A stretch of DNA of 64,000 bases from Patiria pectinifera (lineage: Eukaryota > Echinodermata > Asteroidea > Valvatida > Asterinidae). The notes below the pieces were generated by a model that was not told where the DNA came from, searched no databases, and worked only from the letters and a program-made list of their open reading frames with translations. The position numbers were made by a program, and so were the translations under genes. Every line of letters begins with the position of its first letter. The first letter of the stretch is position 1. The DNA lies in the NCBI GenBank assembly GCA_029964075.1, contig CM057149.1, positions 28,782,197-28,846,196 on the forward strand, read 5' to 3'. Of this stretch, positions 4,859-25,070 are shown piece by piece.

Positions 4859-5375
4859 GCCAAGTCCGCTCAGAACTCATTCTCGGTTCAACAGTCAACC
4901 TATTCACACGTTAATTTCCCACCCAATCTCACCCTCCTCAAAAAAAAAAAAAAAAAATCGAGCATAATCCCAAAATTCGGTACAGGGGGAGTGCACCCCC
5001 GTCGAGCACCCGGGATGCACCCACGTTTCCTCAAGGAGGTTTTTCGTGGCCACTGAGCGCTAATCCTTAGCATTAGACTGGTGCTCAACACCGAATTACT
5101 ATGAACACGCATCATTATTGTCTGTCTCATTCAAGGACGAACCATTCAATTGCTACCAAAGAGCTGTCGGATAAAAAATAATAATAATAATAATAATATA
5201 TATAAATAATACATAAGGGGGGACCTTACTATACTGTGCTCCTCGTGCCGCTTAGGCATCATAATTTAGCTAACGGAGAGACATTGTGTCTCGTCATAAA
5301 GCCGATTGCGCTTTCTTGAACGTTTGACATTTGTTGATTGAACGCTTTTGTGCGTTATAATATGAACCCATTGCT

Positions 5376-6395
5376 TTGCCCATGTTTTTCATTGCTTTTT
5401 CAGCCATTTGCAGCAGCCTCGCAAGTTCCCTACAAGACCCAACCTTACGTCAACTGGCCACCACCAGCCTACGAAATCTACTCCTGTCAGCGACAGCACC
5501 TTCGACCAACAAGAAATATATGGCTTGTTGGGCAAGATGGGAGACCTGGGCATCATCTAAAGCTAGCACGGTATTATTCCCCGTCAACCCATACCAACTC
5601 ACGCTGTACATCACCCAACTGGCAACCACCGGACCAAAGTCTATCGCAGAATCAGCCACAGCGGCAATCAAGTGGGTTCACAGCCTGGCCGGCTTACCTT
5701 CCCCAACAGACAACCCGATGGTGAAGACCGCCCTGCAAGGATTCAAACGACTCCATTCATCAGCTCCTATTCGAAAATAACCCATCACACCGGACATACT
5801 ATCCAAACTCATGGATCGTCACGGTCACAATAACGCCACACTGGCCGATTTGCGAATTGTTTTTATATGCCTCGTGTCTTACGCAGGTTTTCTGCGATTT
5901 AATGACCTATCGGCAGTTAAGCGCAAGGACTGTAATATAGCCAGTGACCATCTAACAATCCACCTTTCCAGATCAAAAACAGATCAGTTCAGACAGGGGT
6001 CAGAGGTAGTAATTTCTAGAACATTCAGATCTACTTGCCCCGTAGCAGCGGCAGAGCGGTACTTCACGGCCTTAGGCGATCCGCTTGACTCATCGTTGCC
6101 AGTACTACGGAGGCTTATACGTACTAAAAAAGGTTTCACCCCTTCCAACCATCCCTTAAGTTACACTCGCACACGCGAGATTGTACTTGACGCCCTCCGG
6201 CCCTTTGTTCCCGATGTTTCCTTATATGGTCTCCACAGCCTCAGATCCGGAGGTGCCACAGCCGCATGTAATGCAAATGTCCCTCCCTTCCTCATCTCCA
6301 AACATGGTAGATGGAAGACCGAAGTGGCCCGAAACGCCTATCTTAAGTTGGACCCCGCCTCAACTATGCTAACATCCCAATCACTTGGAATATGA
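5376..6395 (+). pseudogene. Tyrosine recombinase of a DIRS/Crypton-like element, one in-frame stop
   Basis: The frame encodes an N-terminal SAM-like DNA-binding part (5376-5777, including APSTNKKYMACWARWETW and SATAAIKWVHSLAGLP) and a catalytic part (5781-6395). Catalytic residues of the tyrosine-recombinase fold are visible: R in GFLRFNDL, the H-x-x-R box in LHSLRSGGAT, H in KHGRWKT and the nucleophile Y in ARNAYLKL. The two halves share one frame and are separated only by TAA at 5778-5780. A strong 3' splice site (CATTGCTTTTTCAG, ending near 5402) lies at the start, so translation may begin in an upstream exon. No reverse transcriptase or methyltransferase partner was seen, so DIRS/Ngaro versus Crypton is undecided. 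The stop suggests a recently inactivated copy. Confidence 0.8.
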
Positions 6396-6783: not shown

Positions 6784-8589
6784 TTAAATGTCGTCATTAA
6801 AATATACGGAACACCGCCGTATCACCCGCTTCTTCAGTTGCCTACATGTTTTTCGATGGCACCATGCACCTGAGGCAGCCAGAGATACATTTTTAGATAT
6901 ATCCAGTTCAACTAAAGTGGGCATGTCTCTAAATGATTCAACAATGTGCTCAATGTCGCTCCCTGTCAGTGAGCATGAACATAGCTCAAATCGTTGGAGA
7001 TGTTTCAGTTCCTGTAGTGAAGGTGCCCATTCAGCTGCAGTGCCACCAAGATCAGTAGAATCAGTAATTTTTACTTCAATGAGGTCAGTCCTGTGACCCA
7101 TGGCCTTTACAATATCTGCCACAACAACTCTAGTAAATGAACCCCCATGTAGCTTCAGCCTTGTACCAGAACTGATGTGTTTCAGCCTAAACGCAGAACC
7201 GACTGTACAGTGTACTAGATTGGTCATGCAGCCAACGACGTTGGCAATGTATTTCATATCATCTATATTCAGATCGCAATCATCTAATTCTATCTCCTTA
7301 AGTTGTTTCAGGTATTGTAATTGAAGCCAACATGCACCTGAGCCGATCAGGGATCTATTGCAAGGCAGATATAGTTCAACTAGAGTTGGAGTGCCACTCA
7401 GTGACGCAGCAATGTGCTCAATATCGCTCCCTATTAGTGAGCATGAACATAGCTCTAATCGTTGGAGATGTTTCAGTTCCTGTAGTGAAGGTGCCCATTC
7501 AGCTGCAGTGCCCCCAAGTTGAGTAACATCACTAATTATCACTTTAGTGAGGTCAGTCCTGTAACCCATGGCCTTTACAATATCTGCCACAACGACTCTA
7601 GTATCCCCATCTAGCTGCAGCCTTGTACCAGTCCTGATATATTTCAGCCTGAACGCAAAATAATGGACTGCACAGTTACCTACATGTAGATTTGTCAAAC
7701 AGCCAACGGCTTTGGCAATGTATTTCATATCATCTATATTCAGATCGCAATATTTTAATGTCATCTCCTTAAGTTGTTTCAGGTATTGTAATTGAAGCCA
7801 ACATGTACCTGAGCCGGCCAGGGATCTATTACCAGACAGATTCAGTTCAACTAGAGTTGGCGTGTCACTGAGTGACGCAGCAATGTGCTCAATATCGCTC
7901 CCTATTAGTGAGCATGAACATAGCTCTAAATGCTGGAGTTGTTTCAGTTCCTGTAGTGAAGGTGCCCATTCAGCTGCAGTGCCACCAAGATCAGAAGAAT
8001 CAGTAATTTTCACTTCAATGAGGTCAGTCCTGTGACCCATGGCCTTTACAATATCTGCCACAACAACTCTAGTAAATGAACCCCCATGTAGCTGCAGCCT
8101 TGAACCAGAACTGATATGTTTCAGCCTAAACGCAGAACCGACTGTACAGTGTACTAGATTGGTCATGCAGCCAACGACGTTGGCAATGTATTTCATATCA
8201 TCTTTATTCAGATCGCAATCATCTAATTCTATCTCCTCCAGTTGTTTCAGGCATTTTAACTGAAGCCAACATGCACCTGAGCCGGTCAGGGATCTATTGC
8301 AAGGCAGATGCAAGTTAACTAAAGTGGACATGTCTCTAAATGATTCAACAATGTGACCCATGGCCTTTACAATATCTGCCAAAACAACTCTAGTAAATGA
8401 ACCCCCATGTAGCTGCAGCCTTGTACCAGAACTGATATGTTTCAGCCTAAACGCAGAACCGACTGTACAGTGTACTAGATTGGTCATGCAGCCAACGACG
8501 TTGGTAATGTATTTCATATCATCTATATTCAGATCGCAATCATCTAATTCTATCTCCTCCAGTTGTTTCAGGCATTTTAACGCCAACAT
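6784..8589 (-). pseudogene. Leucine-rich repeat array, C-terminal part
   Basis: This 601-codon frame is the continuation after the 4-bp deletion. Units repeat every 468 bp (anchors at 8156 and 7688), with one unit 471 bp and one only 321 bp because of a 147-bp in-frame deletion (KAMGH joined directly to IVESFRDM). Repeated motifs: LEEIELDDCDLNIDDMKYI, LVHCTVGSAFRLKHISSG, GGTAAEWAPSLQELK. It ends with a divergent capping segment (CHRKTCRQLKKRVIRRCSV) and a stop at 6784-6786. Antisense frames across this region are shadows of the repeats. Confidence 0.85.
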
Positions 8590-9419
8590 GCACCTGAGCC
8601 GGTCAGGGATCTATTCCCAGACAGATTCAGTTCAACTAGAGTTGGAGTGCCACTCAGTGACGCAGTAATGTGCTCAATATCGCTCCCTATTAGTGAGCAT
8701 GAACGTAGCGCTAATTGCTTAAGATGTTTCAGCTCATGCAGTGAAGGTGCCCATTCAGCTGCAGTGCCACCAAGTTCAGTAACATCACTCATTATCACTT
8801 TAGTGAGGTCAGTCCTGTGGCCCATGGCCTTTATAATATCTGCCACAACGACCTTTGTAAATAAATCCCCATGTACGTTCAGCCGTATACAAGAATCCAG
8901 ACATTTAATCGCAAACGAAGAATTGTCTGTACAGTGTACTAGATTGGTCATGCAGCCAACGGCTCTTGCAATGCATTTCATATCATCTATATTCAGAGAG
9001 CATTTATCTAATGTTAGCTGCTTAAGTTTTTTCAGGCATTGTAACTGAAACCAACATGTACCTGAGCCGGTCAGGGATCTATTCCCAGACAGATTCAGTT
9101 CAACTAGAGTTGGAGTGCCACTCAGTGACGCAGTAATGTGCTCAATATCGCTCCCTATTAGTGAGCATGAACATAGCGCTAATTGCTTAAGATGTTTCAG
9201 CTCATGCAGTGAAGGTGCCCATTCAGCTGCAGTGCCACCAAGTTCAGTAACATCACTCATTATCACTTCAGTGAGGTCAGTCCTGTGGCCCATGGCCTTT
9301 ATAATATCTGCCACAACGACCTTTGTAAATAAAACCCCTTGTACGTTCAGCCGTATACAAGAATCCAGACATTGAATCGCAAACGAAGAATCGTCTGTAC
9401 AGTGTACTAGATTGGTCAT
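8577..9419 (-). pseudogene. Leucine-rich repeat array, upstream part
   Basis: An open frame of 280 codons follows the NACHT junction but is out of frame with it. It contains nearly two 156-residue units, each with several LRR-RI-like motifs (LKQLALCSCSLIGSDIEHI, TPTLVELNLSGNRSLTGSG, LKQLTLDKCSLNIDDMK). LRRs form the ligand-sensing horseshoe of NLRs. The frame ends soon after the codons for GACW because four bases present in sister units are missing near 8581. Confidence 0.85.
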
Positions 9420-9807
9420 GCAGCCAACGGTGTTGTTTTTCCCAGACCGGCCAATCCATTGTAAATGATACGATTAATAACGAAACCATCTTCGTTTTCC
9501 ACGAGGAAAGTATCCTCACACAACACCTCCTTCCCCGTTTCATCATCATCACTAACTAATCGTAGATTTGTGTATATTTTTTTGATATGCATCATGTTGT
9601 CATCAACCCATGGAATCATTTGCACGTAACTGCCCGTGGTCATGTATACCTGTTTAAGTGCTTGCTCACACATATCCGCTGCAGCGTCTGCTGCTGCATC
9701 GGTGGCTAGGTTGACATCTGGGCTGGTATCTTGACTGGTTCTTGTCGATGGACTGCAGACCTCAGGTGGGATGTGTTGTACACAGGGTTGATCTTTTATC
9801 ATGCCAC
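9416..9807 (-). pseudogene. NACHT domain start, truncated after Walker A
   Basis: The exon follows a tandem acceptor (TTTTTCAGCAG) and encodes a linker, then the pre-NACHT segment typical of invertebrate NLRs (CEQALKQVYMTTGSYVQMIP, WVDDNMMHIKKIYTNL, DTFLVENEDGF) and the nucleotide-binding Walker A motif GLAGLGKTT. The reading then breaks: four residues later there is a stop, and the DNA continues directly into LRR sequence (VGCMTNLVHCT in a different frame). The remaining NACHT (Walker B, sensor, winged helix) is missing. NACHT proteins are ATP-driven oligomerising sensors, so this copy could not act as one. The exon ends at 9810 if the first of the two AGs is used. Confidence 0.8.
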
Positions 9808-10619
9808 CTGCTGAAAAAGCAACATAACACAGACAATGTTATAGGTGAAAGGATCAGGCGTAAAACGGATATGAAAAAAAAAAATTGTCCTAATAATATC
9901 TTCGCCCCACATAATATTGGAGGGCTTGGATAAAGTGGGATCATGAATCTGAAAAAGGATTTTTTTAATCGCTATTTTTCAAGCAATATAAAATGTGTTC
10001 ACTTTGATTGAAACATTGAAACAAAAAGCCAATGTTTAGTTATGGAAAACATTTTCCTAAAATTCAAATTACTGTGGCCCGATAACGATTTAGTAGGCCT
10101 ACCCGAAGAGTAGACTAGTTCCCGCCTCCATATCAGAGTCTATAGTGAATAGGACGGGAACCAGTCGCCTCACAGGGCAGATCTGTTTACACGCAAAAGC
10201 AACACCAAATAAAAGCCTTTCTTAAGTGCAGACACCCTAAAATAGCTAACCAAAACAGTGGTTAAAGCTAAATGAAATCAAAATGGTTGAAGAGCAAGAC
10301 AGTAACAGGTTTATCAGAGTGCAGGACTGAGTGAAATTTAAAATCATCGCTGTTAATTATTTTTTGGGCGTTAAGAGATGTAGAGTCGTCGTACAGTGTT
10401 TTAACCACAACGTAATGTGCTCTGAGCAATTTTGTATATGAATTTTTTTTAGCAATAGTGCTTTGCATTGTAAAAGCAAAATACACATTACGGATTTGTT
10501 TATCCTTTGAATAATGTGTCTTGGTTTTGTATTGTTTGAATTATTTCTTTTTGTTGTGAAACATAACATTTGGACAAGTCACCGTTGTAAAAACATATCC
10601 CCCAAATATGTAACATATC

Positions 10620-11430
10620 CTCTCAGTCCTTTTGTGGCAAACCCGTCAAGCATGAGGAATTTCCTTGTATTAAAAGTATCTTGGAGTTACCCTTGACACC
10701 CGAACAGAGTGAAGACCAAGCAGGGTCAACATCGTCAACAAATTAGCAATCACTAGGTGGGGATCAAATGCTCATACTCTGTACTCCACAGTTGAGTAAT
10801 GTGCACAGGCATGGGCTGAGAGCTGGTATTTCAAACAAATTGACACCATCTTGAACTCAGCAATGATTTTTATCTCGGGTACTCTCCAATCTACTCCAAT
10901 CCAGTGGCTCCCAGTTCTCTCTCACATCAGTCCTCCAGGCAGAGAACATAATATGCTGAAAGAATTGGGGCGCATTGAAGACTACCCAGACCTGCCAATC
11001 CACAAGGACTTGAATAATCTGCCTAGAATGCGCCTCAAATCTAGCAAACCCTTCTGGGCTTCCAAAGAGGCCCTTTGAAGAGGCAAGTTTAGACCCAAAG
11101 TCCAAATTGCAAAATCTCCGGGCAGATGCCAATATCGCCAACAAAGACCTTGTCCAGGCTCCCACAAAAGAGGTCCCAGGTTTCAACCTCCCTCGAAAAC
11201 AGTGGACTGCTCTTAACAGGATCCGAACACTTCATGCCAGAACAGCCCATCACCTGAACAAATGGAAGATGATAAGCACTTCTGCATGTGACTGCGGACA
11301 CCCTGATCAGACTGTCCTCCAAATCGTTCAAGACTGCACTCTTAGGTACTTCCCTGGGGGCCTCAAGGCAATCTATGAAGCAACAGACGCAGCACTGACC
11401 TGGCTGTATAATCTAGATCTGACACTCTAA
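10620..11430 (+). mobile_element. Jockey-type LINE reverse-transcriptase 3' relic
   Basis: Two frames carry the C-terminal end of a non-LTR retrotransposon polymerase: 10851-11075 (ISGTLQSTPIQWLPVLSHI, PDLPIHKDL) and 11107-11430 (NLPRKQWTALNRIRTLHART, ACDCGHPDQTVLQIVQDC, ending LTWLYNLDLTL). The CDCGHPxQTxxHIVxxC zinc-knuckle-like end is characteristic of these elements. Frameshifts and stops upstream show it is dead. It lies in the intron between 11708 and the NACHT exon, on the opposite strand. Confidence 0.75.
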
Positions 11431-11707
11431 GCTGCTCATCATACGAAAGAAGAAGAGTGGCCCATTATACAGCATTGCATCACTACTGCACCGAGACTCT
11501 TTAGACAACTGGCACTTACATCGTCATCTGAATGGGTCAATCTCAGTGACATTAATTAGGAGCATTTTCAAACGCAAAACGCAAAACTGTCATAAGTTAT
11601 AGAACAACCTCCATTTGGTATATTTACTGCATGGTAGTTGCCGTAAATTTGAAGAACGGTTAACTAGAAATTGAATATAAAGAAAAACAGCAATTCAAAC
11701 TACTTAC

Positions 11708-12476
11708 TTGGTGCCACTCCCTGGACAATGTAATTCACATTGTAATGAACGTGATCCGAGGCGACAATGATGGGATTACCGATGCCATCCACCTTGCCAA
11801 TTTCTCCAATTCCTACAGCTGGTTGCAGGGAACCGGGCGGCCGATCAGTACATACAGTAGACGGCTGCTGAATGACTGGATGGAGAGATAAGGGTACCGA
11901 ATCTCGAACTAAAATGAGGAATCAGACTTTAGAGCATAACTATATAGGACTTAACAGAAATAAACCCCAAAGGTCAGACAAAGAGCATGATAACACATAA
12001 TTTTCATGATTTCATCTATCTCACTGTATGTGTTGTCTATCTTACCAGGAATGAGAAGAGATTGGATTCTGCTGAAGTAGACATAGTCTAATGATCCAGA
12101 GAGCACGAACGATGTATGAGGTTCTGGGGAAAATGCCGATTTCTTCACCATTTCGTGTGGTGACATGCAGTTATGCAGGCATATTAAAATAAAAGTAATC
12201 ATAAACTGTTGATTTATGTGTGGGTTTGGTGAAGTAACATACGCAGTATAGTAGTGAAATAACAAGCTATGCGTATCCCGTAGGCGTACCATTTCTAACA
12301 CAATGGTACCGTTTCAAAGACGAAATCAAACTGACCAGTTTCTGTAAAGCTATTGGTGGAGGTACCACTTGTGGATGATGCTGCATCATTTGATTTCCTT
12401 CGCTCGGATTTTGCTTTCTTTGTTGCGGTTGTCCCTGAATCCGTGTTTGTCCTCACAAGTCTGTTTTGTGAATTCT
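11708..12476 (-). CDS. Three linker exons joining UBL to NACHT
   Basis: Exons 12336-12476 (ENSQNRLVRTNTDSGTTATK, basic and Ser/Thr-rich), 12046-12123 (EPHTSFVLSGSLDYVYFSRI) and 11708-11908 (VRDSVPLSLHPVIQQPSTVC, VGIGEIGKVDGIGNPIIVA, ending YNVNYIVQGVAP) are all phase 1-1 with good acceptors (TTTTCCCCAG before 12123, CATTTTAG before 11908). The last one ends A|GTAAGT and is in phase with the NACHT exon at 9807. No domain was recognised. Confidence 0.65.
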
Positions 12477-12796
12477 CTGCAGACAGAATGTTACATAGAG
12501 TAATATAACGACAGCCAGTTAACAAAGTGGTTGAAATAACCCCCCCCCCCCAAGTATTTCACAAGTTTAAGCTTGGCTACTTGCACAATGCGTAATCGTA
12601 TATACAGAATGTCTCTGTTCATCAGCTCCAGCCTTTAACCAAAATACAAGATGTTATTGTACGTAAAGACTTCACCTGCTACATCATGCTGATAGGCTTT
12701 ATCTGTATTTACGACTTCGAGTGTTGTTCTAGTTTGGAGCTGACCAGATCCCTTGATTGATATATTTTTAGCATGAAGATGGAGATAAAGATTCAC

Positions 12797-13309
12797 CTGC
12801 TGATTTCTGTTCATCGTCAGCTCCGCCCTTCAACCCGGACACGAGGCGTAGCTCTATGTTAGCATCTTGCTCAATCGCCTGATCTTTGAGGGGAACCCCA
12901 TCGTATAGCTGGACAAAAAGAACATTATTTAACAAGTGTCGTCAAGTGAATTATAATGATTCTTTCAAGACTATCCAAGACCGAAACCTATACCAGCTGA
13001 TGGCCTGCTAGAGTAAGGAACACTTGTGGGACAGGGAATCTTAGAATAGTGAGTATACATATAAATTCGACATTACCTCGTGGTGTTGTCTGACAAAAAG
13101 ATGCTGCTTCTCTGGTTCAATCCCAAGTTGGTCTTGAAGGTTTCCTTTTAAGGCTGATGTAAGAGTTGATGGATGCAGTTGCAGACATATTGGTCCTATC
13201 AAAGAACTATACACAAACAGCTGGATCGGGCGTTCTACCTTCTCTTCACAGAATACAAAATGTAGTTTCCTGGCAGCATTTCCTGGTTCCGTTCTTGTCT
13301 TTGTTCTTC
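12797..13309 (-). CDS. Ubiquitin-like domain copy 3, retains LKGG
   Basis: Exon 13077-13309 opens with a linker (GRTKTRTEPGNAARKLHF) and then IQLFVYSSLIGPICLQLHPS, SALKGNLQDQ and IEPEKQHLFV. Exon 12797-12908 continues LYDGVPLKDQAIEQDANIEL then RLVSGLKGGADDEQ. Alignment to ubiquitin is straightforward: LYDGVPLKDQAI corresponds to LEDGRTLSDYNI and LRLVSGLKGG to LVLRLRGG. This is the only copy of three that keeps a terminal diglycine, followed by ADDEQKSA, so a processing site is conceivable but unproven. Both splice sites and phases are intact. Confidence 0.85.
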
Positions 13310-13488
13310 CTATTATGCATAAAATATCATATTACATATTTTAAAATATTTCATTTTAATGTGAAAATAAAGTATGCCTTGAAATAAACTTGGATTTATC
13401 TCCCACTTTATCACAAGCAATGGTGAGTAAAATCGTCTTTGACAGTCTAACCACCCCAAAAACCAGACCAAGTATTTTTTTTTTTTAC

Positions 13489-14097
13489 CTAACGGTAATT
13501 GTATTACATGTATTTCCTTTGATGCTCCATCTGGATTATTATGCAGCTCTTTTTTCTTTGCTTCATGCCCAGTGGGTGCCCTCATCTCTTGAAGGCAGCT
13601 CTTGTCTCTCTTGGTTTTGGATCTTCTCCAATCGCCACCCTGCTCCAACGAGCCTTCATCCGATCTTCGCTGCTTCGACGATGTCGTCATCTCTTGTTGA
13701 CAGATCTGCTCCCTGACCACTGCGCCTTGCTGCTTCTCTATCTGAGATCCATCTGGGTCACAAGTTTGCTCCTCTCCATGTTTCTCTTTCTCAGATGATA
13801 GCTTCTTTACTTGTTCAAAGCTCTCATTACTGTGTTTTAACGTTTTCACGTTCCCTTTCTGACAACCGTGTGTATGCTCCTTTCCTTGTGTTTCTTTCTC
13901 GTTGTATGTAAGTTGACTGACTTTATCTTTGACCCCTGTTGCTCCGCAGCAGTCTCGCTGAGGACTGTCTTGCTCATCTGTCAGTCTCTGTTGCTCCCGC
14001 GATGTCTCGGTTTCTTTTTTGTTGATTTTCTGTCCACTATCCGTGCCTTGCTGTTTCTTCAACTGAAGACTGTCTTTGTAATTCTCCACATAGCATC
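13489..14097 (-). CDS. Long Lys/Glu/Gln-rich linker exon, copy B
   Basis: Phase 1-1 exon of 609 nt (about 203 residues), highly charged, paralogous to 15679-16308 (shared LTDEQDSPQ, VREQICQQEMTTSS, CLQEMRAP/CLQEKRQP). The donor GTAAAAAA follows LPLG. No known domain is visible; probably disordered. Confidence 0.7.
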
Positions 14098-14400
14098 CTT
14101 AAAAGTACCACAACAATGTTTAGCACGATTAATTTCTAAAACTCTGATTGGAAGACTAGGATGCCAGCATTAATAATAAGATCAAAGCCACTTGCTATTA
14201 CAAATAACTATGATAAACTGAGAAAATACAATCTTGAGAACAGAAAGAAATGGAAACGATTTATGAATTTGCTCCGTCTGACAAGCTGTGAAATGCTATA
14301 ACACGTGGCACCTTTATTCAAGAAATAGATCAGATATTTACTGCAAGAAGAAATAATCGACCTGATTGGAACTACATGTAAAACAAACAGAACATTTTAC

Positions 14401-14589
14401 CAGATTTGGATTGCTCAGTAGCGGTGGCATCGATTGACGAGGAGATGGAGGAATCCTTCGAGTTCACTTTATCTTCATCATGAGGACTTGTGTCCACATC
14501 AACAGGAGGAGATTTCTTGACAGCTCGTCTTCTGCTTTCCCTTGTCTTTCTTCTCGCCTTCTTCGTCATTTTTGTCTTTCGTGTTCTTC
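14401..14589 (-). CDS. Basic/Ser-Asp linker exon
   Basis: Phase 1-1 exon of 189 nt reading GRTRKTKMTKKARRKTRESR, then VDVDTSPHDEDKVNSKDSS and ending ATATEQSKSG. It is a close paralogue of 16616-16801, sharing the DEDKVNSKDSSIS and SIDATATEQSK segments, and belongs to a duplicated block of about 2.2 kb. Confidence 0.7.
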
Positions 14590-14983
14590 CTACAAGATCA
14601 AACAAACAGGAGTTGTCAAGATATCTACGTGTAGTCTGCTTGGAATGAACTATACCCCTGAAAATGTATTAGTCAGAATAGGACTTTTATACCAGTCTTT
14701 CATGATCCTTTTTGTTCCCATTTGTTTGATATGTTTTCGAGTATGTTAATATTTTAGATAGTGTCAGCCCTTATATTTTATATATTGCATTAATTACATT
14801 TTTTTTTTGCAAATCGTGTACAATTTAGTCTTCTGGTCATCACACATGAGCTTTAAATACACCAGTAGTAATAATAACAGTACTAACTTATGGCTGTCTC
14901 AACTGTTATGCAGTTGCGACAGTCCACAGCATCACCCGACGATGTCCATCAATCATAACATCAAGTTCAAGATGAAGATTTAC

Positions 14984-15437
14984 CTGCTGATTTCCGTTCA
15001 CCGACAGCTCTGCCCATCAACCCAGATACCAGGTATATCTCTATGTTGGCATCTTGCTCATCATGCGTCTTCAAAGGAAACATTTCAACTTGTTTAATCA
15101 AGTGAATCGAAACGATCAATTCAAGACATTTTAAGACTATAAGCGTGTAATTGCAAGCTATAGAACGACACAATTATGGGATAACGAATCTTAGATTAAC
15201 AGACAGACGTTACCTTGTCGTGTCGTCTGGTGAAATGATGTTGCTTCTCTGGTTCATTCCCAGATTGGTTTTGAAGTTTTCCTTTCAAGATTGTGATAAA
15301 AGTGGATGGACGCATTTGTAGACATATTGGTCCCATCAAAGTACTATTTACAAAGAGCTGGATCTGGTGTTCTCCATTCTCTTTACATGCAGGCTTCTTT
15401 TGAGCGTCTGTTCGTTCCCTTCTTGTCTTCGTTCTTC
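14984..15437 (-). pseudogene. Ubiquitin-like domain copy 2, second exon lacks its acceptor
   Basis: Exon 15214-15437 starts with a basic linker (GRTKTRRERTDAQ) and then the UBL first half (IQLFVNSTLMGPICLQ, TILKGKLQNQ, NEPEKQHHF). The second half at 14984-15092 reads QVEMFPLKTHDEQDANIEIY then LVSGLMGR and is 109 nt, identical in length to the matching exon of copy 1. The two bases before it (15093-15094 on the + strand) are TT where CT is required, so on the transcript the acceptor is AA instead of AG. No other acceptor restores the frame. The C-terminus is MGR, so the diglycine is absent. Confidence 0.7.
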
Positions 15438-15678
15438 CTATAATGTAGATAATTACATGTGTAAATTTAACACATCATTTTTTTTCTAACATTGATAAGA
15501 TAGTTGACTTTAATATGAACTTGAAAATATTCTTTCAGATACGCTCAAAATTCATCTGTTGTACATGATGAATCAGCGAACATAGTATTTCAAGTGCCAA
15601 TCAGGGGAAACGTTTTAAAGACTCGATATAAGATGCTTAATATGAGGAAAATATTCCTACATCACAAAGCATATTTAC

Positions 15679-16308
15679 CTGAAGGTACATGCATATTTCC
15701 CTTTGATGGCCGATCTGTATGATTAACTTGCTTCTGTTTCCGTGTTTCTCGCACTGGAGGTTGCCTCTTCTCTTGAAGGCAGCTCGGTTCTCTCTTAGTC
15801 TCGGATCTGTTTAGATCTCCAACCTGCTTCAGTGTGTCTTTAGCCGATCTTTGTTGCCTCGACGATGTCGTCATCTCTTGTTGACAGATCTGTTCCCTGA
15901 CCATTGCGCCTTGCTGCTTCTCTTTCTGAGGTCCTTCTGGATCACAAGTCTTCTCATCTCCATGTTTCTTTTTCTTGGGTGTTAGTGCCTTTACTAGTTT
16001 AAAACTCTCATCACTGTTCTTTAACGCTTTCCCATTCTCTTTCTGACAACCGTCTGTTTGCTCTCTTACAAGTCTTTCTTTGTTATGGAATGTTAGTTTG
16101 GAGTCTATAAATTTTACCCTTGTTACTTCGCAGGTCTCTGGCTGAGGACTGTCTTGTTCATCTGTTAGTCTCTGGTGTTCCGGCGATGTCTCCATATCTT
16201 CTTGGCTGATGTCCTTTCCAGCATCCGTCCCTTGCTGTTTCTTCTGAAGACTGTCTTTGCAGTCCTCCATCTGACCAGGTGCCTGGTTATGCGGGACAGC
16301 ACAGCATC
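15679..16308 (-). CDS. Long Lys/Glu/Gln-rich linker exon, copy A
   Basis: A 630-nt phase 1-1 exon encodes about 210 residues, highly charged and without a recognisable fold: begins GCCAVPHNQAPGQMEDCKDS, contains QQEMTTSSRQQRS and a KKKKHGDEK stretch, and ends before a GTAAAT donor. It is clearly paralogous to 13489-14097 (shared KDSLQ-KKQQGTD, LTDEQDSPQ, KTCDP/QTCDP and VREQICQQEMTTSS motifs). The composition suggests a disordered or coiled segment. Confidence 0.7.
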
Positions 16309-16615
16309 CTAAAAAGGACCACAGCAATGTTTAGTACGATTCATTTCTAAAACTGTTTCACTGGAAAGACTATGAATCGAACATTAGTTCCATTCTAGAC
16401 TTTATGGGATCAAATCCACTTGTCATTCCAAATAAATGTGAGGAGAAACTGAGAAAATACAATCTAGAGAAGAGATAATTAAAATGACTTTGCTCAGTCT
16501 GAGATGGTATGAGATACCTAAAACGAAGCACCTTTAAGGAAAAGAACAATAACGAATTCAGGAGAAATAAATCACTCTGATTGGAACAACATGTAGAACA
16601 AACAGAATATTTTAC

Positions 16616-19539
16616 CGTATTTGGATTGCTCAGTAGCGGTGGCATCGATTGACGCGGAGATGGAGGAATCCTTCGAGTTCACTTTATCTTCATCATGAAG
16701 ATATGTGTCGGCATTAACAGATGGAGATTTCTTGGCAGCTTGTCTTCCTACTCTCCTTGTCTTTCTTGAAACCTTCTCAGCCATGCTTGTCTTCCGCGTT
16801 CCTTGTGTAAATAAGAACCACGCAGAAACGGGAGTTGTGATGACATTATTTCTGTAATCTCCATGAAATGAACTAAACCACTGAAACTATATTACTCAGA
16901 ATTAAAGGATTTTTTACCAGGTTTTGATGGCTTAGTAATGGCTGTCTCAACTGCTCGTGGGTTGCAAGTGTATCATCCAAGTTTAGATTGACATCCCCTA
17001 GGGAAGTAGGTCTGTTGGTTTTCTTCTCACACAAAGATGTTTGGCCAGCGTTCTTTCAGTTTTTGTGTCCCCCCTCCCTACGACAATTCTTTTTTTTAAT
17101 AACTTTTAATCATTAATACTCTGGAATCATAACACGTTTTAGGCCTACAGTAAATGCAAACCAGCTTTTACCTCGCTTCTCGTGCACTGTATCAGGCAAG
17201 CTTGTTTTTCCTTTGGGTGCTGCCTCACATGAATTTCTGGCAGTTGCAGTTTTTTCTTTTGCCGTCAACATTACATTTTTCTCTTTCCTGCTTGGCATTC
17301 GGCTTCTCTCTGAGAAGAAAATTAAACAATGCGAAGCTGTGAAGACAGTTTCATCAATAACCAACAAAACCACCGACAATAATCTTTGACATGCTTGAAG
17401 TGCCGCCATTAATCTTGAGGAGGTTGAGGAATCCCAAGTATACCATCACAGACTTGTTGGTCTTCATCACCCAGACTTGTCTTACCATTGATATCCGCTT
17501 CAGACTGGGATTTCTGGACGCCTTTCCCTTTTCCCTTTCTCGTCCTCCCTGAGTCCTTGTCTGTCATTGCCTTTTCTGTTTTCGCTTTTCGTGTTTCCCC
17601 TGCCGAGTTTCTACCAGATGGATTATCTCCTGAAGGGATGACAGAATGTCCACTTTCATCCGACTTATCTTGCATGTTGTCATCCTGGCTTTTCTTTTTC
17701 TCAGAATCTATTTTCTTGTTAACTTTTCTTTTTCTTTTTCTTTTTCTCGTCCTCCACGATTCCTTGTCAGTTAATTTTCTTGAATGTCCTAAGGAGCAAA
17801 TAAAAAAGACTAAGTGTATTTTAAAGCGTATTAAAATAAAAGAATATTATAACTCGCTTTAATCCTTGTACAGTTTATGCATTGAATGCATTCCATGGCC
17901 TACCAGTTAGCTATACTATCAGAATGAACATACTTTACCTTTTGATTTGCTGTTAGCCATGGCAGTGGATGACTGGGAGACAGTGGAATCGCTTGAGCCA
18001 TCTGAGATCTCTTTCTCTTCATCACCCGTGCTTGTGTTATCATTGGCTACTTCTTCAGAAGGAAATTTCTCGGCCGTTTTTCTTCGTCTTCTTCTTATCC
18101 TCCCTGAAAAAAAGAAACCCTTACAAATATCCATATTTAAGAAATTCTTTGATCGATTGCTCGCAAAGATAGGTTGTTGAGGGATGAGAACAAAATACCC
18201 CAGCAGTCTTATGCACTTGCTCTCATTTATGTGATGAAATCTGCCCTTACGCTAGTCCTCCTAAAATTTTAAAGTGAAACTTTAAAAAAGTTCAAATTTT
18301 CATTTTGAACAATCTTTATTCCATTTGTAAGCTCCTAAACGGTGTTTAATAGACAGCTTTCCAAACTCCAATTCATCAGACTTCAACTGCAATATTCGGA
18401 ACCTCTTTTTCAGGATTAGGCTGAAGGCAGAAACAATTACTGAAATGGCTTTTCAAGTCAGTCGATAATTGATGGAAATGCACATTGGACCGAATGAAAT
18501 GTAACGAGAAGCTAGGGTTTTACCAGACTTAGATTGATTACTGGCGGCTTCAACTCCTGAACAGGTGGGACAATCTCCTGCTTCCGCATTGTCTTCATCA
18601 CGTGACGTAGTCTGTCCACGTGAATCACCAGGTGGAGATTGTCCTCTCGCTTTTCCTCGTCTTCTTCTTGTTCTCCTTTTTGCTACGGAATATTAATCAT
18701 GGAGAGAGAGTCAGGAAGTGAGCAAGTTTCTAGGTCATTGAATGCGAACTGAGATGTTTAGACTTAAGGTCCCTTTAAGCCAGAGGAATGCATGCCTTCC
18801 GAAAAGTTTGAATTTAAACCACACGTAACAGGGCAAATCAGAATACTTTATAGTACATGTATTTTACCATGTATTGCTGCAGAGGTATATGAGCAGCCGG
18901 AGCCATCCGATGGATCTTGCTCTTCACCACATGGAGATGTTTGTAGCTTAGTGTCTTCTGTAGGCGAGGTAATTGTGTGAATCAAATAAAGAGAACAGAT
19001 GCTCAGGTTGATTGTGGTTGTGATCAGTGGGAGGTGCAGAATCTGTAGCAATACGTCGAGTATACCAGACTTCGACGGGATGCTTTCTGTTGCATAAGGT
19101 GCCGATATGGTTTTTGAATTGCTCGAATTATTTAACTTTTCTTGACATCCCCAGTCAGGTTTTATTCTCCTTCAGCTCCTCCACACGACAGTTTCTTGTC
19201 AACATGTTTAGGTTTTCGCCCCTTCCTTTTCCTTTCCCCTGAATGTAAATAGGCCTACAGCTGAACTATTGCTTTCTTTAGAAACATTCACCCAACATTG
19301 TTAACAGCTTAGTAAAGTCTTCCAAATGAACTAGATATACTGAAAGTGTGTCAGTATTTGTAAGTTGTCACCTTTTGATGGGCTGCTTGTCGAGACCCCA
19401 CTTGTTGAATAAGTAGCTGAATCTCCACAGTGATTCGAGTTTACGTCGTCTTTCTTACCCAAAGCGGGCTTTTTGTCTTTTTCTTCTGCAAATGAAGATT
19501 TGCTGCCCAACTTCCTCTTTCTTCTTCTCTTCTCTTTTC
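16616..19539 (-). CDS. Run of basic/Ser-Asp linker exons, all phase 1-1
   Basis: Exons 19372-19539, 19066-19238, 18868-18957, 18524-18682, 17939-18103, 17444-17788, 17172-17309 and 16616-16801 repeat a common plan. Most start with an Arg/Lys block (for example RIRRRRRK, AKRRTRRRRG, WRTRKRKRKRK) resembling nuclear-localisation or nucleic-acid-binding tails, then an acidic Ser/Thr/Asp stretch (TSTGDEEKEISDGSSDS, HDEDKVNSKDSSIS) and end near SKSG, SKYG or SKG. Every exon begins after one base of a codon and ends the same way, so copies can be gained or lost without changing frame. The exception is 19066-19238. Probably disordered; function unknown. The 3' limit of 17444-17788 is the best in-phase donor, not a certain one. 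Confidence 0.65.
16918..16953 (-). other. Possible mini-exon or decayed linker tail
   Basis: Thirty-six bases read AVETAITKPSKPG in phase 1-1 and end with a good GTAAAA donor. A diverged copy of the same words lies near 14880-14910. The acceptor (CCCACGAG) is weak, so this may be only a relic of the linker repeat. Confidence 0.25.
19066..19238 (-). pseudogene. Linker exon with frame-breaking indel
   Basis: It begins like its neighbours (GERKRKGRKP after the phase-1 acceptor) but reaches TAA within about 25 codons. The last part reads sensibly in another frame (SNSKTISAPYATESIPSKSG before the donor). The length is 173 nt, not a multiple of three, whereas every sibling linker exon is. A one-base loss or two-base gain inside the exon explains this. 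Confidence 0.6.
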
Positions 19540-19614
19540 CTGCATATTAAGACGGGAAATTTTTCTGTGAGACAATCAGTTTGTTACCTATAAACACAGA
19601 TAGTTGGCATAACT

Positions 19615-19800
19615 CATATGCCCAGTCAGTGGCGTAACTAAGGGGTTACGGGGCACGTCCCTCCCTCCCCCAGCTGATTCCCCCTACCGTGAAATCTTGA
19701 ACTGAACAAAAATTTTATTTTGTTTGCCTTCCCCCCGAATAAAAATGCACCCCCAGGTGCTCCTTCCCTCCTCCCCCAGCAGTCTCATCTATTTATTTCT
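19615..19800. repeat. Probable transposon remnant in an intron
   Basis: A C-rich stretch beginning near CAGTGGCGTAACTAAGGGG, with several CCCTCCC/CCCCC tracts, resembles common non-autonomous DNA-transposon ends. No partner end was identified inside the intron. Confidence 0.25.
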
Positions 19801-19873
19801 ATTGATCAGTTCAAGAAGTCAACCTGTATATACATGCACGGCATGACTCTATGTCCATAATTATATACTTTAC

Positions 19874-20349
19874 CTGCTGATTTATGTTGATAGCTTCCAT
19901 TCATCAAGTCAGACACTAGGCGTAAGTCTATCTTGGAATCTTGGACAATCCCATGGTCCTTTAGTGAGAAATCATCGCGAAGCTAAAAGAAAATAATACA
20001 GAAGCATTTTTTGGGTGAAAATTAGAACAGACCTATAAGGGAAATTGAGGGAAAAGACTGACAAATGAATAAACCTGCAGCCGTAGCATAATAGACATGG
20101 AAGGAATGCATGGAAGGAAGGCACTGGTTGCAGTGTATCAGAGTTGTGGTTTTGTTTGGCAATGACAATGAACATTGTGAGAGGTCCAGATTTACCTCAT
20201 GATGTCTCTTTGTGAATAGATGTTGCTTTTCTGGTTCAATCGCCAGTTTTTCTTGTAATAATCCTTTCAAGGTTGAGATAGCGGTGGAAGGATGCAGCTG
20301 CAGACACAGAGCTGACCTTGAAGAGCTTCTCACGCGCAGCTGGATCTCA
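19874..20349 (-). CDS. Ubiquitin-like domain copy 1 (two exons)
   Basis: Exon 20196-20349 encodes the first half of a beta-grasp fold: IQLRVRSSS, then LCLQLHPSTAISTLKGLL and IEPEKQHLF, which line up with ubiquitin strands 1-2, helix 1 and strand 3. Exon 19874-19982 supplies the second half: LRDDFSLKDHGIVQDSKIDL then RLVSDLMNGS, equivalent to the LEDGRTLSDYNI region and the C-terminal strand. The split falls at the same place in all three copies. The end reads LMNG, not GG, so conjugation through a diglycine is unlikely; a binding role is more plausible (inference). The exon pair enters in phase 2 and leaves in phase 1. Confidence 0.8.
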
Positions 20350-20721
20350 CTGTGAACACGTAACAAACAGGTCCAAAGAGGTTGACTTGATGTGATAGTT
20401 TGAGGACATTCTTGCAGGAACGATTCAATAACAAGAAGAAGCAATAACAATAAGAAACATTGTTAGTTAATTTACGCAATTACTCTGTATGGATTCCTCC
20501 GAGTTGGAGTGGAATTGTAAAATCATTGGCGCGGCACCAGTTTACAATTTAGCCAATGTTATATGTCTTTATGAAATGAAACTTATATACTTAGCGGTTG
20601 GCCTATATGTATGTAGCCCGGGTGTACTACCTAATTGTTTTTGATGAATCACAAAGGATTTAACAGGCCACACTACGGGACATATCGGAACATGTCATTA
20701 GGACCAGAAACATCTAACTAC

Positions 20722-21481
20722 CTGCATTGAGTATCCTCAGCCGAAGTTGCCCTTAGGTTGCACGATGGTGATGAAGACGTATCCTCGAACATGTTCCGGG
20801 AAAGCACGGACAGAAATATCGTCCTTCTAGACTTTCGGATCTTTTTCTTTCTTGTGACCATCTTAGCCAGCGAGTGATCGTTGATGACCCGAGCAGCCCT
20901 CTTGGCATCCTCCAAGTCTGCGAGGGTCCTCAAAGGTACCAGGAATTCTCCCTTTTAACACGATTTAATACAAAATTATTATCAGATACGAGCGTGGTTG
21001 TATATTTTCAGTTCCATGTTAATATAGGAGATAGGATCTCTTGCATTCCGACCAGTCAGTGTAGTGTTGTTGTCCCCGCACTGTCAGACCGTTAGGTAAA
21101 TCATTGTTGGGCTAGGAATGAGGTCAGCTCACTGTTAGTTCATTCGGGTAAAAAATTGCCACATATTGGGAAGAATTTGCCCAAGAGTGTAGGCAGTTGG
21201 TATGCTGATAAATACTAGGCAAAATACCACTCCATCTGCCAAACATTTATTACAGTGTTGCAGCCCCCATGACATCCTAGAGTCGAGCAAAGCCGTATAG
21301 AATCTGAAAAAAACTTCAGTCGATACTGACTAAGCAAGCAACAACATACCTCATACCCAAATGCAGCTAAAGTTATTTATGAAACTTCGTTTTGCTCTTC
21401 ATTAGGAAAGATTTTTCTTACCATTGTTATTTCCTCAAGATGGAAGATGGAACTGACGTGATAAATTGTTGCTAGCAAATC
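20722..21481 (-). CDS. PB1-like domain, two exons (5' start not found)
   Basis: Exon 21422-21481 encodes 20 residues (DLLATIYHVSSIFHLEEITM) and exon 20722-20951 continues in phase 0 with GEFLVPLRTLADLEDAKRAA, then a basic segment (TRKKKIRKSRR) and TIFLSVLSR. The pattern of helix, short strand, then LxxLxDLEDAkRAxxxIN followed by a final hydrophobic strand matches the second half of a PB1 domain of MAP3K2/MAP3K3 type, which pairs with other PB1 proteins. The acidic OPCA signature is weak, so this is a tentative assignment. The exon ends after two bases of a codon and joins the UBL exon at 20349, completing a serine codon. The N-terminal half of the domain should lie upstream, in or beyond the palindrome region, and was not found. 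Confidence 0.45.
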
Positions 21482-22493: not shown

Positions 22494-22940
22494 CAAGATT
22501 TCTGCGCAGAAATCTGCGATGTCGCACATTTTATCGCAGAAATCTGTGCAGATTTCTGCGATGTTGCACATTTTATCGCAGAAATCTGCGCAGATTTCTG
22601 CGATGTCGCACATTTTATCGCAGAAATCTGCGCAGATTTCTGCGATGTCGTTCATTTTGTTGCACATTTTATCGCAGAAATCTGCGCAGATTTCTGCGAT
22701 GTCGCACATTTTATCGCACATTTCTGCGCAGATTTCTGCGATGTCGCACATTTTATCGCAGATTTCTGCACAGATTTCTGCGATGTCGCACATTTTATCG
22801 CAGATTTCTGCGCAGATTTCTGCGATGTCGCACATTTTATCGCACATTTCTGTGCAGATTTCTGCGATGTTGCACATTTTATCACACATTTCTGCGCAGA
22901 TTTCTGCGGATGTCCCACACTTTTATCGTACATTTCTGCA
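22494..22940. repeat. 42-bp tandem satellite, left arm
   Basis: Units built on TCTGCGATGTCGCACATTTT and ATCGCAGAAATCTGCGCAG repeat about ten times, with alternating GAAA/GATT/CACA variants. Each unit contains its own short palindrome (AATCTGCGCAGATT). Confidence 0.9.
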
Positions 22941-23332: not shown

Positions 23333-24150
23333 GTGGAAATTGTTTTTTTGAATTTCCTAATTCGTTCGCACGAATTACTAATCCGTTCGCACGAATTGGT
23401 TATTCATTCACACGAATTAGTAATTCGTTTGAACGAATTACTGACTCATGGAAACGAATTAGTAATTTGTGGGAACGAATTAATTATTCGTTCGCACGAA
23501 TTACTAATTCATTCGTACAAATTATTAATTCGTTCGCACGAATTACTAATTCGTTCGCACGAATTACTAATCCGTTCGCACGAATTAGTTATTCGTTCGC
23601 ACGAATTAGTAATTCGTTCGCACGAATTACTAATTCGTTCGCACGAATTACTAATTCGTTCGCACGAATTACTAATTCGTTCCCACGAATTACTAATTCG
23701 TTCCCACGAATTGCTAATTCGTTCGCACGAATTACTAATTCGTTCGCACGAATTGCTAACTCGTTCGCACGAATTGCTAATTCGTTCGCATGAATTGCTT
23801 ATTCGTTCCCACGAATTACCAAGTTGTTCCCACGAATTACTGGCACGTTCCCGGATGCACGAGTTAGCAATTCGTTTCCACGAATTAGGAAATCGTGCGA
23901 ACGAAACAGCAATTCGTGCGAACGAAATAGTAATTTGTGGGAAAGAAATAGTAATTCGTGCGAACGAAGTAGTAATTCGTGCGAACGAAATAGTAATTCG
24001 TGCGAACGAATTAGGAATTCCTGCGAACGAAATAGCAATTCGTGCGAACGAATTAGGAATTCGTGCGAATGAAATAGGAATTCGTGCGAACGAATTAGCA
24101 ATTCGTGCGAACGAATTAGTAATTCGTGCGAACGAATTAGGAAATTCCAA
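23333..24150. repeat. 21-bp satellite core with central inversion
   Basis: Units of TAATTCGTTCGCACGAATTA type run from about 23350 to 23830, then continue as the reverse complement (AATTCGTGCGAACGAATT) from about 23870 to 24145. Each unit is itself an imperfect palindrome around TCGC. Confidence 0.9.
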
Positions 24151-24433: not shown

Positions 24434-24947
24434 TCGCAGAAATCTGCGATAAAATGTGCGACATCACAGAAATCTGCACAGAAATGTGCGATAAAATGTG
24501 CGACATCGCAGAAATCTGCACAGAAATGTGCGATAAAATGTGCGACATCGCAGAAATCTGCGCAGATTTCTGCGATAAAATGTGCGACATCGCAGAAATC
24601 TGCACAGAAATGTGCGATAAAATGTGCAACATCGCAGAAATCTGCGCAGATTTCTGCGATAAAATGTGCGACATCGCAGAAATCTGCGCAGAAATCTGCG
24701 ATAAAATGTGCGACATCGCAGAAATCTGCGCAGAAATGTGCGATAAAATGTGCGACATCGCAGAAATCTGCGCAGATTTCTGCGATAAAATGTGCGACAT
24801 CGCAGAAATCTGCACAGAAATGTGCGATAAAATGTGCGACATCGCAGAAATCTGCGCAGATTTCTGCGATAAAATGTGCGACATCGCAGAAATCTGCGCA
24901 GATTTCTGCGATAAAATGTGCGACATCGCAGAAATCTGCGCAGAAAT
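24434..24947. repeat. 42-bp tandem satellite, right arm (inverted)
   Basis: The reverse complement of the left array: GATAAAATGTGCGACATCGC and AGAAATCTGCGCAGA words, about twelve units. Variant units are not in strict mirror order, so the arms have drifted or rearranged independently. Confidence 0.9.
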
Positions 24948-25070
24948 CTTGATGAGTGATGTCCCTTCAGGGCCACCATAGTTTTGGCCGGTAACCTGAT
25001 TTTATTAAGCAAGACGTTTTTGTGCTTAAGCAAATTTTGTGCTTAAGCAGCTCTATGAAATTGGCCCCAG

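Follow-up and report, generated by a model that had tools for sequence, protein, structure and literature searches.

Textbook animal NLRs are receptors with a death-fold, BIR or transactivation domain, and integral ubiquitin-like domains (UBLs) are known from other immune signalling proteins, such as OASL and TBK1/IKK. Here, we describe a candidate gene of the starfish Patiria pectinifera in which UBLs stand in front of the beginning of a NACHT domain and leucine-rich repeats (LRRs). It lies on the minus strand, at 6784-21481, of a 64,000-nucleotide stretch (C21:28782197-28846196, contig CM057149.1), which is called the window below and to which coordinates without a contig refer. OASL and TBK1/IKK share integral UBLs with the starfish family to which this gene is assigned, while they possess neither NACHT nor LRR and serve as a working analogy only. 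The Death-NACHT-LRR NLRs of echinoderms and other invertebrates share NACHT, LRR and tandem expansion with the starfish family.

No description of an echinoderm UBL-NACHT-LRR protein was found in the open PMC literature (subscription papers and preprints lay outside the search). An Ig-NACHT membrane NLR has been reported from a sea cucumber (PMC13133943), and a 2017 survey of SAMD9 proteins presented fusions with CARD, Death, PYRIN and FIIND (PMC5445408); the word 'ubiquitin' is absent from the available text of the former, from the available main text of the latter, and from the accessible part of PMC11508797. In work on NLRX of the sponge Dysidea avara, a figure legend on NLR architectures includes UBQ, ubiquitin, among the domains (PMC12909245); this is a different phylum, and the accessible text does not state the protein or its domain order. 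According to section 13 of PMC8195603, as far as its text was available, Ub-system domains are among the variable effector partners of TRADD-N conflict proteins in marine invertebrates. Those proteins are built on TRADD-N, not on NACHT-LRR, and the starfish proteins treated there are borderline TRADD-N matches.

The window gene reads, in order along the minus strand, as a leader exon, UBLs with charged linkers, a NACHT start with its Walker A motif, and LRRs. An earlier note on this DNA had proposed a sensor made of a PB1-like domain, three UBLs, NACHT and LRRs; the three UBLs, the charged linkers, the NACHT start and the LRRs were all found in the proposed order. The locus is very probably a decayed tandem member, with most of its NACHT lost, of a starfish family of tandem NACHT-LRR genes that carry one to three N-terminal UBLs behind a conserved leader exon instead of death-type domains. 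Apart from PB1, the architecture proposed for the sensor is real, while the copy in the window is broken. Among the window pieces scanned with Pfam, no Death, CARD, PYD or DED match was obtained, and the window cluster gave no SAMD9 match at an E value of 1e-4.

The most complete evidence comes from a tandem paralog, gene 2 (C21:28699490-28686195), about 104 kb from the window gene. Its 18 exons join, in a splice model, into 2,722 amino acids with zero stops and with GT/AG at all 17 introns, in the order leader, three UBLs, NACHT and LRR; NACHT (90.7 bits) and LRR share a single open exon of 1,576 amino acids. The UBL exons of gene 2 are 88-96% identical at the DNA level to those of the window, and the splice sites are kept. 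Against a cut-off of 25.4 bits for the Pfam ubiquitin profile PF00240, UBL A of gene 2 scores 27.3 and UBL C 23.8 (below the cut-off), and UBL B gives no match; the acceptor of UBL B was set using the reading frame and the Patiria miniata protein P0006, with which the resulting residues agree. The same order of leader, UBLs, NACHT and LRR is seen in gene 1 (C21:28.66-28.62 Mb) and in a gene at C21:7.418-7.401 Mb, both read at the level of match order.

The 613.5 Mb assembly was searched with the window UBL C, the NACHT core of P. miniata protein P0001 and the leader as queries; 150 of 240 UBL candidates and 127 of 465 NACHT candidates were scored, so that the counts are lower bounds. The UBL C query gave at least 107 exon matches, at least 98 of them on C21 in clusters near 3.2, 4.9, 7.4-7.9 and 28.65-28.80 Mb. 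The NACHT core gave at least 128 matches, and all 23 scored at 70% identity or more lie on C21 in the last three of these UBL clusters. When the 107 UBL matches were compared with 32 of the 128 NACHT matches (these 23 and 9 others), 22 of the 23 subfamily NACHTs were preceded, at a distance of 2.3-21.5 kb, by UBL exons on the same strand without another scored NACHT intervening, and none of the 9 others had such an upstream UBL. The remaining 96 NACHT matches are on contigs that have no match to the UBL C query, which misses diverged UBLs such as those on C17, or are more than 10 Mb from one.

Three protein searches (4090, 579 and 213 candidates), by a method that needs shared 5-residue words and whose returns are no proof of absence in other organisms, led to 13 different proteins, 12 of them from P. 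miniata or Acanthaster planci. P0001 (P. miniata LOC119732303, 2,368 amino acids) carries ubiquitin in two stretches (48.6 bits), NACHT (75.3 bits) and LRR, all above the Pfam cut-offs. UBL, NACHT and LRR also stand in one protein model in P0013 (P. miniata LOC119732306), and P0004 (A. planci LOC110973527) has NACHT (90.1) and LRR_14 (45.1) above the cut-offs, with a UBL that aligns along its full length with other starfish UBLs. UBL exons and NACHT-LRR hence belong to one gene type, as had been proposed, and they are not always confined to separate genes in relatives. Unlike the Death-NACHT-LRR NLRs, the C21 subfamily has UBLs, and neither P0001 nor P0004 gave a Pfam match to Death, CARD, PYD or DED. 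As judged by eye, the end of P0002 and the start of P0005, a NACHT-LRR protein without UBL, match successive parts of P0001, and the two may be one gene split in annotation. A further protein, P0012 (1,809 amino acids, source 'ena'), has many ubiquitin repeats before a P-loop domain in a layout unrelated to the starfish family, and is apparently a separate fusion of UBL and nucleoside triphosphatase (NTPase).

Among five paralogs from the 4.9 and 7.4-7.6 Mb clusters (10 non-independent pairs), the ratio of nonsynonymous to synonymous substitution rates (dN/dS) was 0.18 and 0.35 for exons 1 and 2 of the first UBL and 0.44 for the leader. Between the window gene and gene 2, it was 0.15 for the leader, where the two are 96% identical in amino acids, and 0.74 for the linkers. 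These ratios indicate that the first UBL is under purifying selection in the paralogs sampled, and that constraint between the window gene and gene 2 is weak. The link between the UBL part and NACHT-LRR is therefore supported by the open frame of gene 2, the order in the same genome, the single protein models of relatives and the purifying selection on the first UBL.

Several observations weigh against this family anatomy. The UBLs are little constrained between the window and gene 2, with dN/dS of 0.82 for A, 0.63 for B and 1.07 for C (few changes). The splice models were built from genomic sequence alone, and an alternative acceptor for UBL B of gene 2 gave 162 stops. For one subfamily NACHT (C21:7687470-7688402, 89% identical to P0001), the 105 kb upstream contain neither a UBL nor a leader match. 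For at least three groups of UBLs (at 3.17 Mb, at 7.87 Mb and in the window), the scored matches include no full NACHT that would belong to them. The P. miniata models P0002, P0003 and P0006 carry UBLs and stop before NACHT, and the UBLs of P0004 (18.6 bits) and P. miniata P0007 (19.4 bits) are under the Pfam cut-off. Because each UBL is split by an intron and no DNA stretch encodes a whole one, P0003 was folded entire with AlphaFold, and the model was poor (mean predicted local distance difference test score 40.6; predicted template modelling score 0.28), showing strand, strand and helix at both UBLs and leaving their second halves unresolved.

The window exons, all on the minus strand, were selected by open frame and GT/AG ends, and stretches near 19240-18960 and 17085-16917, which were not readable through, were excluded. 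Nineteen exons, from 20349 to 9416, form a single frame of 1,428 amino acids with zero internal stops. Each UBL consists of two exons around a phase-0 intron, and the charged linker exons between UBLs are flanked by phase-1 introns. A candidate first exon (21422-21481), open and with splice sites, supplies the start codon and ends in ATG immediately before GTAAGA, and gene 2 has an identical exon end, ATG before GT. It is followed by the leader exon (20722-20951), which ends in phase 2 and is backed by matches to P0002 and gene 2. UBL A comprises 20196-20349 and 19874-19982, which jointly score 26.5 bits with PF00240, above the cut-off; its second exon, supported by splice model, Pfam and alignment, ends in LMNG rather than LxGG. 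Within 15679-19539 follow the charged linkers 19539-19372, 18957-18868, 18682-18524, 18103-17939, 17788-17486, 17309-17172, 16801-16616 and 16308-15679, all open, in phase 1 at both ends and bounded by GT/AG. UBL B has a first exon at 15214-15437 (splice model; 91.5% DNA identity to gene 2) and a short second exon at 14984-15068 with the tail LMGR, a short form shared with gene 2 and P0006; it is about 9 residues short and has no Pfam match. Two linkers known from the splice model, 14589-14401 and 14097-13489, lead across 13489-14589 to UBL C, whose exons at 13077-13309 and 12797-12908 (tail LKGG; splice model and alignment) jointly score 18.3 bits, below the cut-off, and which matches PDB ubiquitin chains by sequence (single-ubiquitin matches near 1e-6). 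Past UBL C lies a linker exon at 12336-12476, in phase 1 at both ends, and directly before NACHT another at 11708-11908, which matches residues 192-263 of P0005 (37%) and adjoins the match of the NACHT-start exon to residues 262-386 of the same protein.

Splice phases had been said to match at every step but one. They do agree, and the mismatch vanishes when the exon end at 12336 is joined to 11908, phase 1 to phase 1; the donor at 12046, for which 12336 was substituted, was set aside as not needed for an in-frame join. Phase agreement alone is weak evidence, because nearly all window introns are in phase 1 and the exons were chosen by open frame.

The leader exon is likely the part that the earlier note called PB1-like. 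The piece gave no Pfam match at E values up to 5, PB1 (PF00564) included, and no NCBIfam match, and the leader of gene 2 together with its UBL A gave no PB1 at E values up to 1; HMMER filters discard most weak matches, which bears on these PB1 negatives. Positions 20951-20722 match residues 5-78 of P0002 at 58% identity. The PB1 identity was therefore rejected, since the profile does not match and other starfish UBL proteins have this exon as their leader too, and the argument from p62/MEKK signalling loses its support along with it.

The leader and UBL recur on other proteins. All 108 candidates of the leader query were scored, which gave 64 places, with 28 on C21, 29 on C17 (weak), 3 on C10, 2 on C5, and 1 each on C14 and C19. 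At C14:19.43 Mb, leader and UBL precede a SAMD9-like core; P0008, P0010 and P0011 are likewise SAMD9-like STAND proteins with leader and UBL (PF00240 29.2 bits in P0011). These starfish proteins share the leader and UBL with the NLR family, and differ in the STAND NTPase and the C-terminal part and in having no LRR. The SAMD9-like protein of P. pectinifera is 91% identical to that of P. miniata over the piece compared. The leader/UBL places on C5 and C10 are probably like the C14 gene. On C17, the one locus read (C17:10812001-10828000) contains a leader, a UBL first half, Death domains (51.2 bits for the Death piece), a second UBL ending in LLGG (29.1 bits), NACHT and LRR, and P0007 combines Death (70.3 bits), the sub-cut-off UBL and NACHT in a single model, so that a second starfish NLR group is indicated in which UBL is joined with Death domains. 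The presence of leader and UBL on both SAMD9-like and Death-NLR proteins is what one would expect if an interaction module had been reused across STAND switches.

Some members may also be attached to membranes. Between two UBLs, P0001 (residues 249-267), P0002 and P0003 have a hydrophobic stretch with a mean hydropathy of 2.4-2.5 over 19 residues, and a similar membrane-helix-like stretch occurs in the P. pectinifera genome at C21:7415175-7415074. Gene 2 has no such stretch before NACHT (hydropathy 1.2). The NLR subgroup with the stretch may be membrane-anchored.

For intact members, a mechanism can be proposed from known NLRs and the position of the UBLs. Before ligand binding, the LRRs would keep the protein inactive; once a ligand is bound, NACHT would exchange nucleotide and oligomerise; and oligomerisation would cluster the UBLs into a ready-made ubiquitin chain or UBL platform, to which partners that have ubiquitin-binding domains (NEMO, TAB or E3-type) would be drawn rather than death-fold adaptors. 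Since the UBLs occupy the usual signalling-domain position of NLRs, their clustering is the likely output. We put this mechanism at slightly less than an even chance, and the whole explanation, anatomy and mechanism together, at about an even one.

The UBLs could instead be stability tags that control receptor turnover through binding to the proteasome or to shuttle factors, in the manner of the UBLs of Rad23 or Parkin. An integral N-terminal UBL in a long protein would suit this role, as would the occurrence of leader and UBL on unrelated STAND proteins. However, it leaves unexplained why two or three UBLs, or a UBL with Death, occupy the signalling-domain position, and we regard it as unlikely.

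A different role would be processing at LxGG, in which the UBLs are cut or conjugated: a deubiquitinase-like protease could release them to serve as a modifier, or the cut could act as a tripwire by which the NACHT-LRR part is freed or destabilised. In most starfish UBLs, LxGG forms the end and more protein comes after it, as in a ubiquitin precursor: LxGG is present in 12 of 17 aligned starfish UBLs, in the C17 UBL, and in 10 of 14 genomic tails, the latter being a pattern-caught subset of UBL exons from which one non-UBL plus-strand match was excluded. However, neither UBL A nor UBL B retains the motif in the window or in gene 2, nor does UBL B of P0006, so that it is dispensable in some copies, and the fold by itself would also place GG where the last strand ends; we consider such processing rather improbable. 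The broader proposal, that starfish NLR and SAMD9-like proteins carry latent LxGG modifiers which would be released or exposed on triggering or on attack by an LxGG protease, is a longer shot still. If true, such a receptor would be a sensor that also carries its own ubiquitin-like signal in precursor form, or else would bait ubiquitin-stripping proteases.

Turning to the preferred reading of the window copy itself as a decayed family member, the NACHT-start exon (9416-9807, minus strand; 61-67% identity to P0005 and P0001) is cut after the Walker A motif GLGKTT. From that point the DNA continues as an LRR repeat read in a different frame; the remainder of NACHT is absent, and Pfam finds no NACHT match in this copy. 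Gene 2 has its P-loop at residue 1309 and its first LRR-like stretch at residue 1804; by this layout, the window copy lacks about 480 residues or more. LRR segment 1 (8577-9440), which differs in frame from the NACHT start, ends at a 4-nucleotide deletion near 8588, and segment 2 (6784-8610, 608 codons) ends at a stop (6784-6786) absent from neighbouring repeats; both are open reading frames matched by Pfam, on the minus strand, and are built of 468-bp tandem units 84-90% alike. Because most of NACHT is lost and further lesions exist, the window copy as assembled is no working NLR, and its product could at best be a UBL-linker protein with no switch or sensor. The NACHT loss might instead reflect assembly collapse in a repetitive LRR gene, with an intact copy here in the animal, and the similar tandem LRR units, a setting prone to collapse, and a breakpoint located at an LRR repeat speak for it. 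This too seems rather improbable, in view of the two additional lesions in the LRR part, a linker-exon frame change near 17085-16917 relative to P0006 (judged by eye), and the relaxed UBL constraint, all of which point to real decay.

Finally, it is highly improbable that a UBL-linker gene ('trichohyalin-like', P0006) and a separate NACHT-LRR gene lie side by side and were fused only by prediction programs: P0002, P0003, P0005 and P0006 each carry one part without the other and the UBL-NACHT joins are models from genomic sequence, but both parts are united in P0001, P0013 and P0004, which come from two starfish families, every junction of gene 2 keeps the frame, 22 of the 23 subfamily NACHTs follow same-strand UBLs, and P0002 and P0005 match consecutive parts of P0001.

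Other features were also noticed in the window. An open frame on the plus strand at 11014-11430, inside the intron 11707-9808, resembles what we take to be the end of a LINE-type reverse transcriptase and has no NCBIfam match. Downstream of the LRRs, a plus-strand open frame at 5361-6395 presumably corresponds to a tyrosine recombinase of a DIRS or Crypton type element; its part 5781-6395 has no Pfam or NCBIfam match. By the 5' end of the gene lie tandem arrays at 22496-22939 (42 bp), 23358-24140 (21 bp) and 24435-24949 (42 bp), open in several frames on both strands.

For annotation, the starfish family carries a warning, as some public models have the UBL part without NACHT. The occurrence of leader and UBL on SAMD9-like proteins as well suggests a shared input to one pathway. 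A tandem NLR subfamily (at least 23 NACHT copies) with UBLs replacing death folds would show that the N-terminal output of an animal NLR can be swapped for ubiquitin-type signalling, and the group that has both UBL and Death adds to the case for swappable output. The starfish family would thereby offer a non-mammalian test case for how clustered UBLs start a response.

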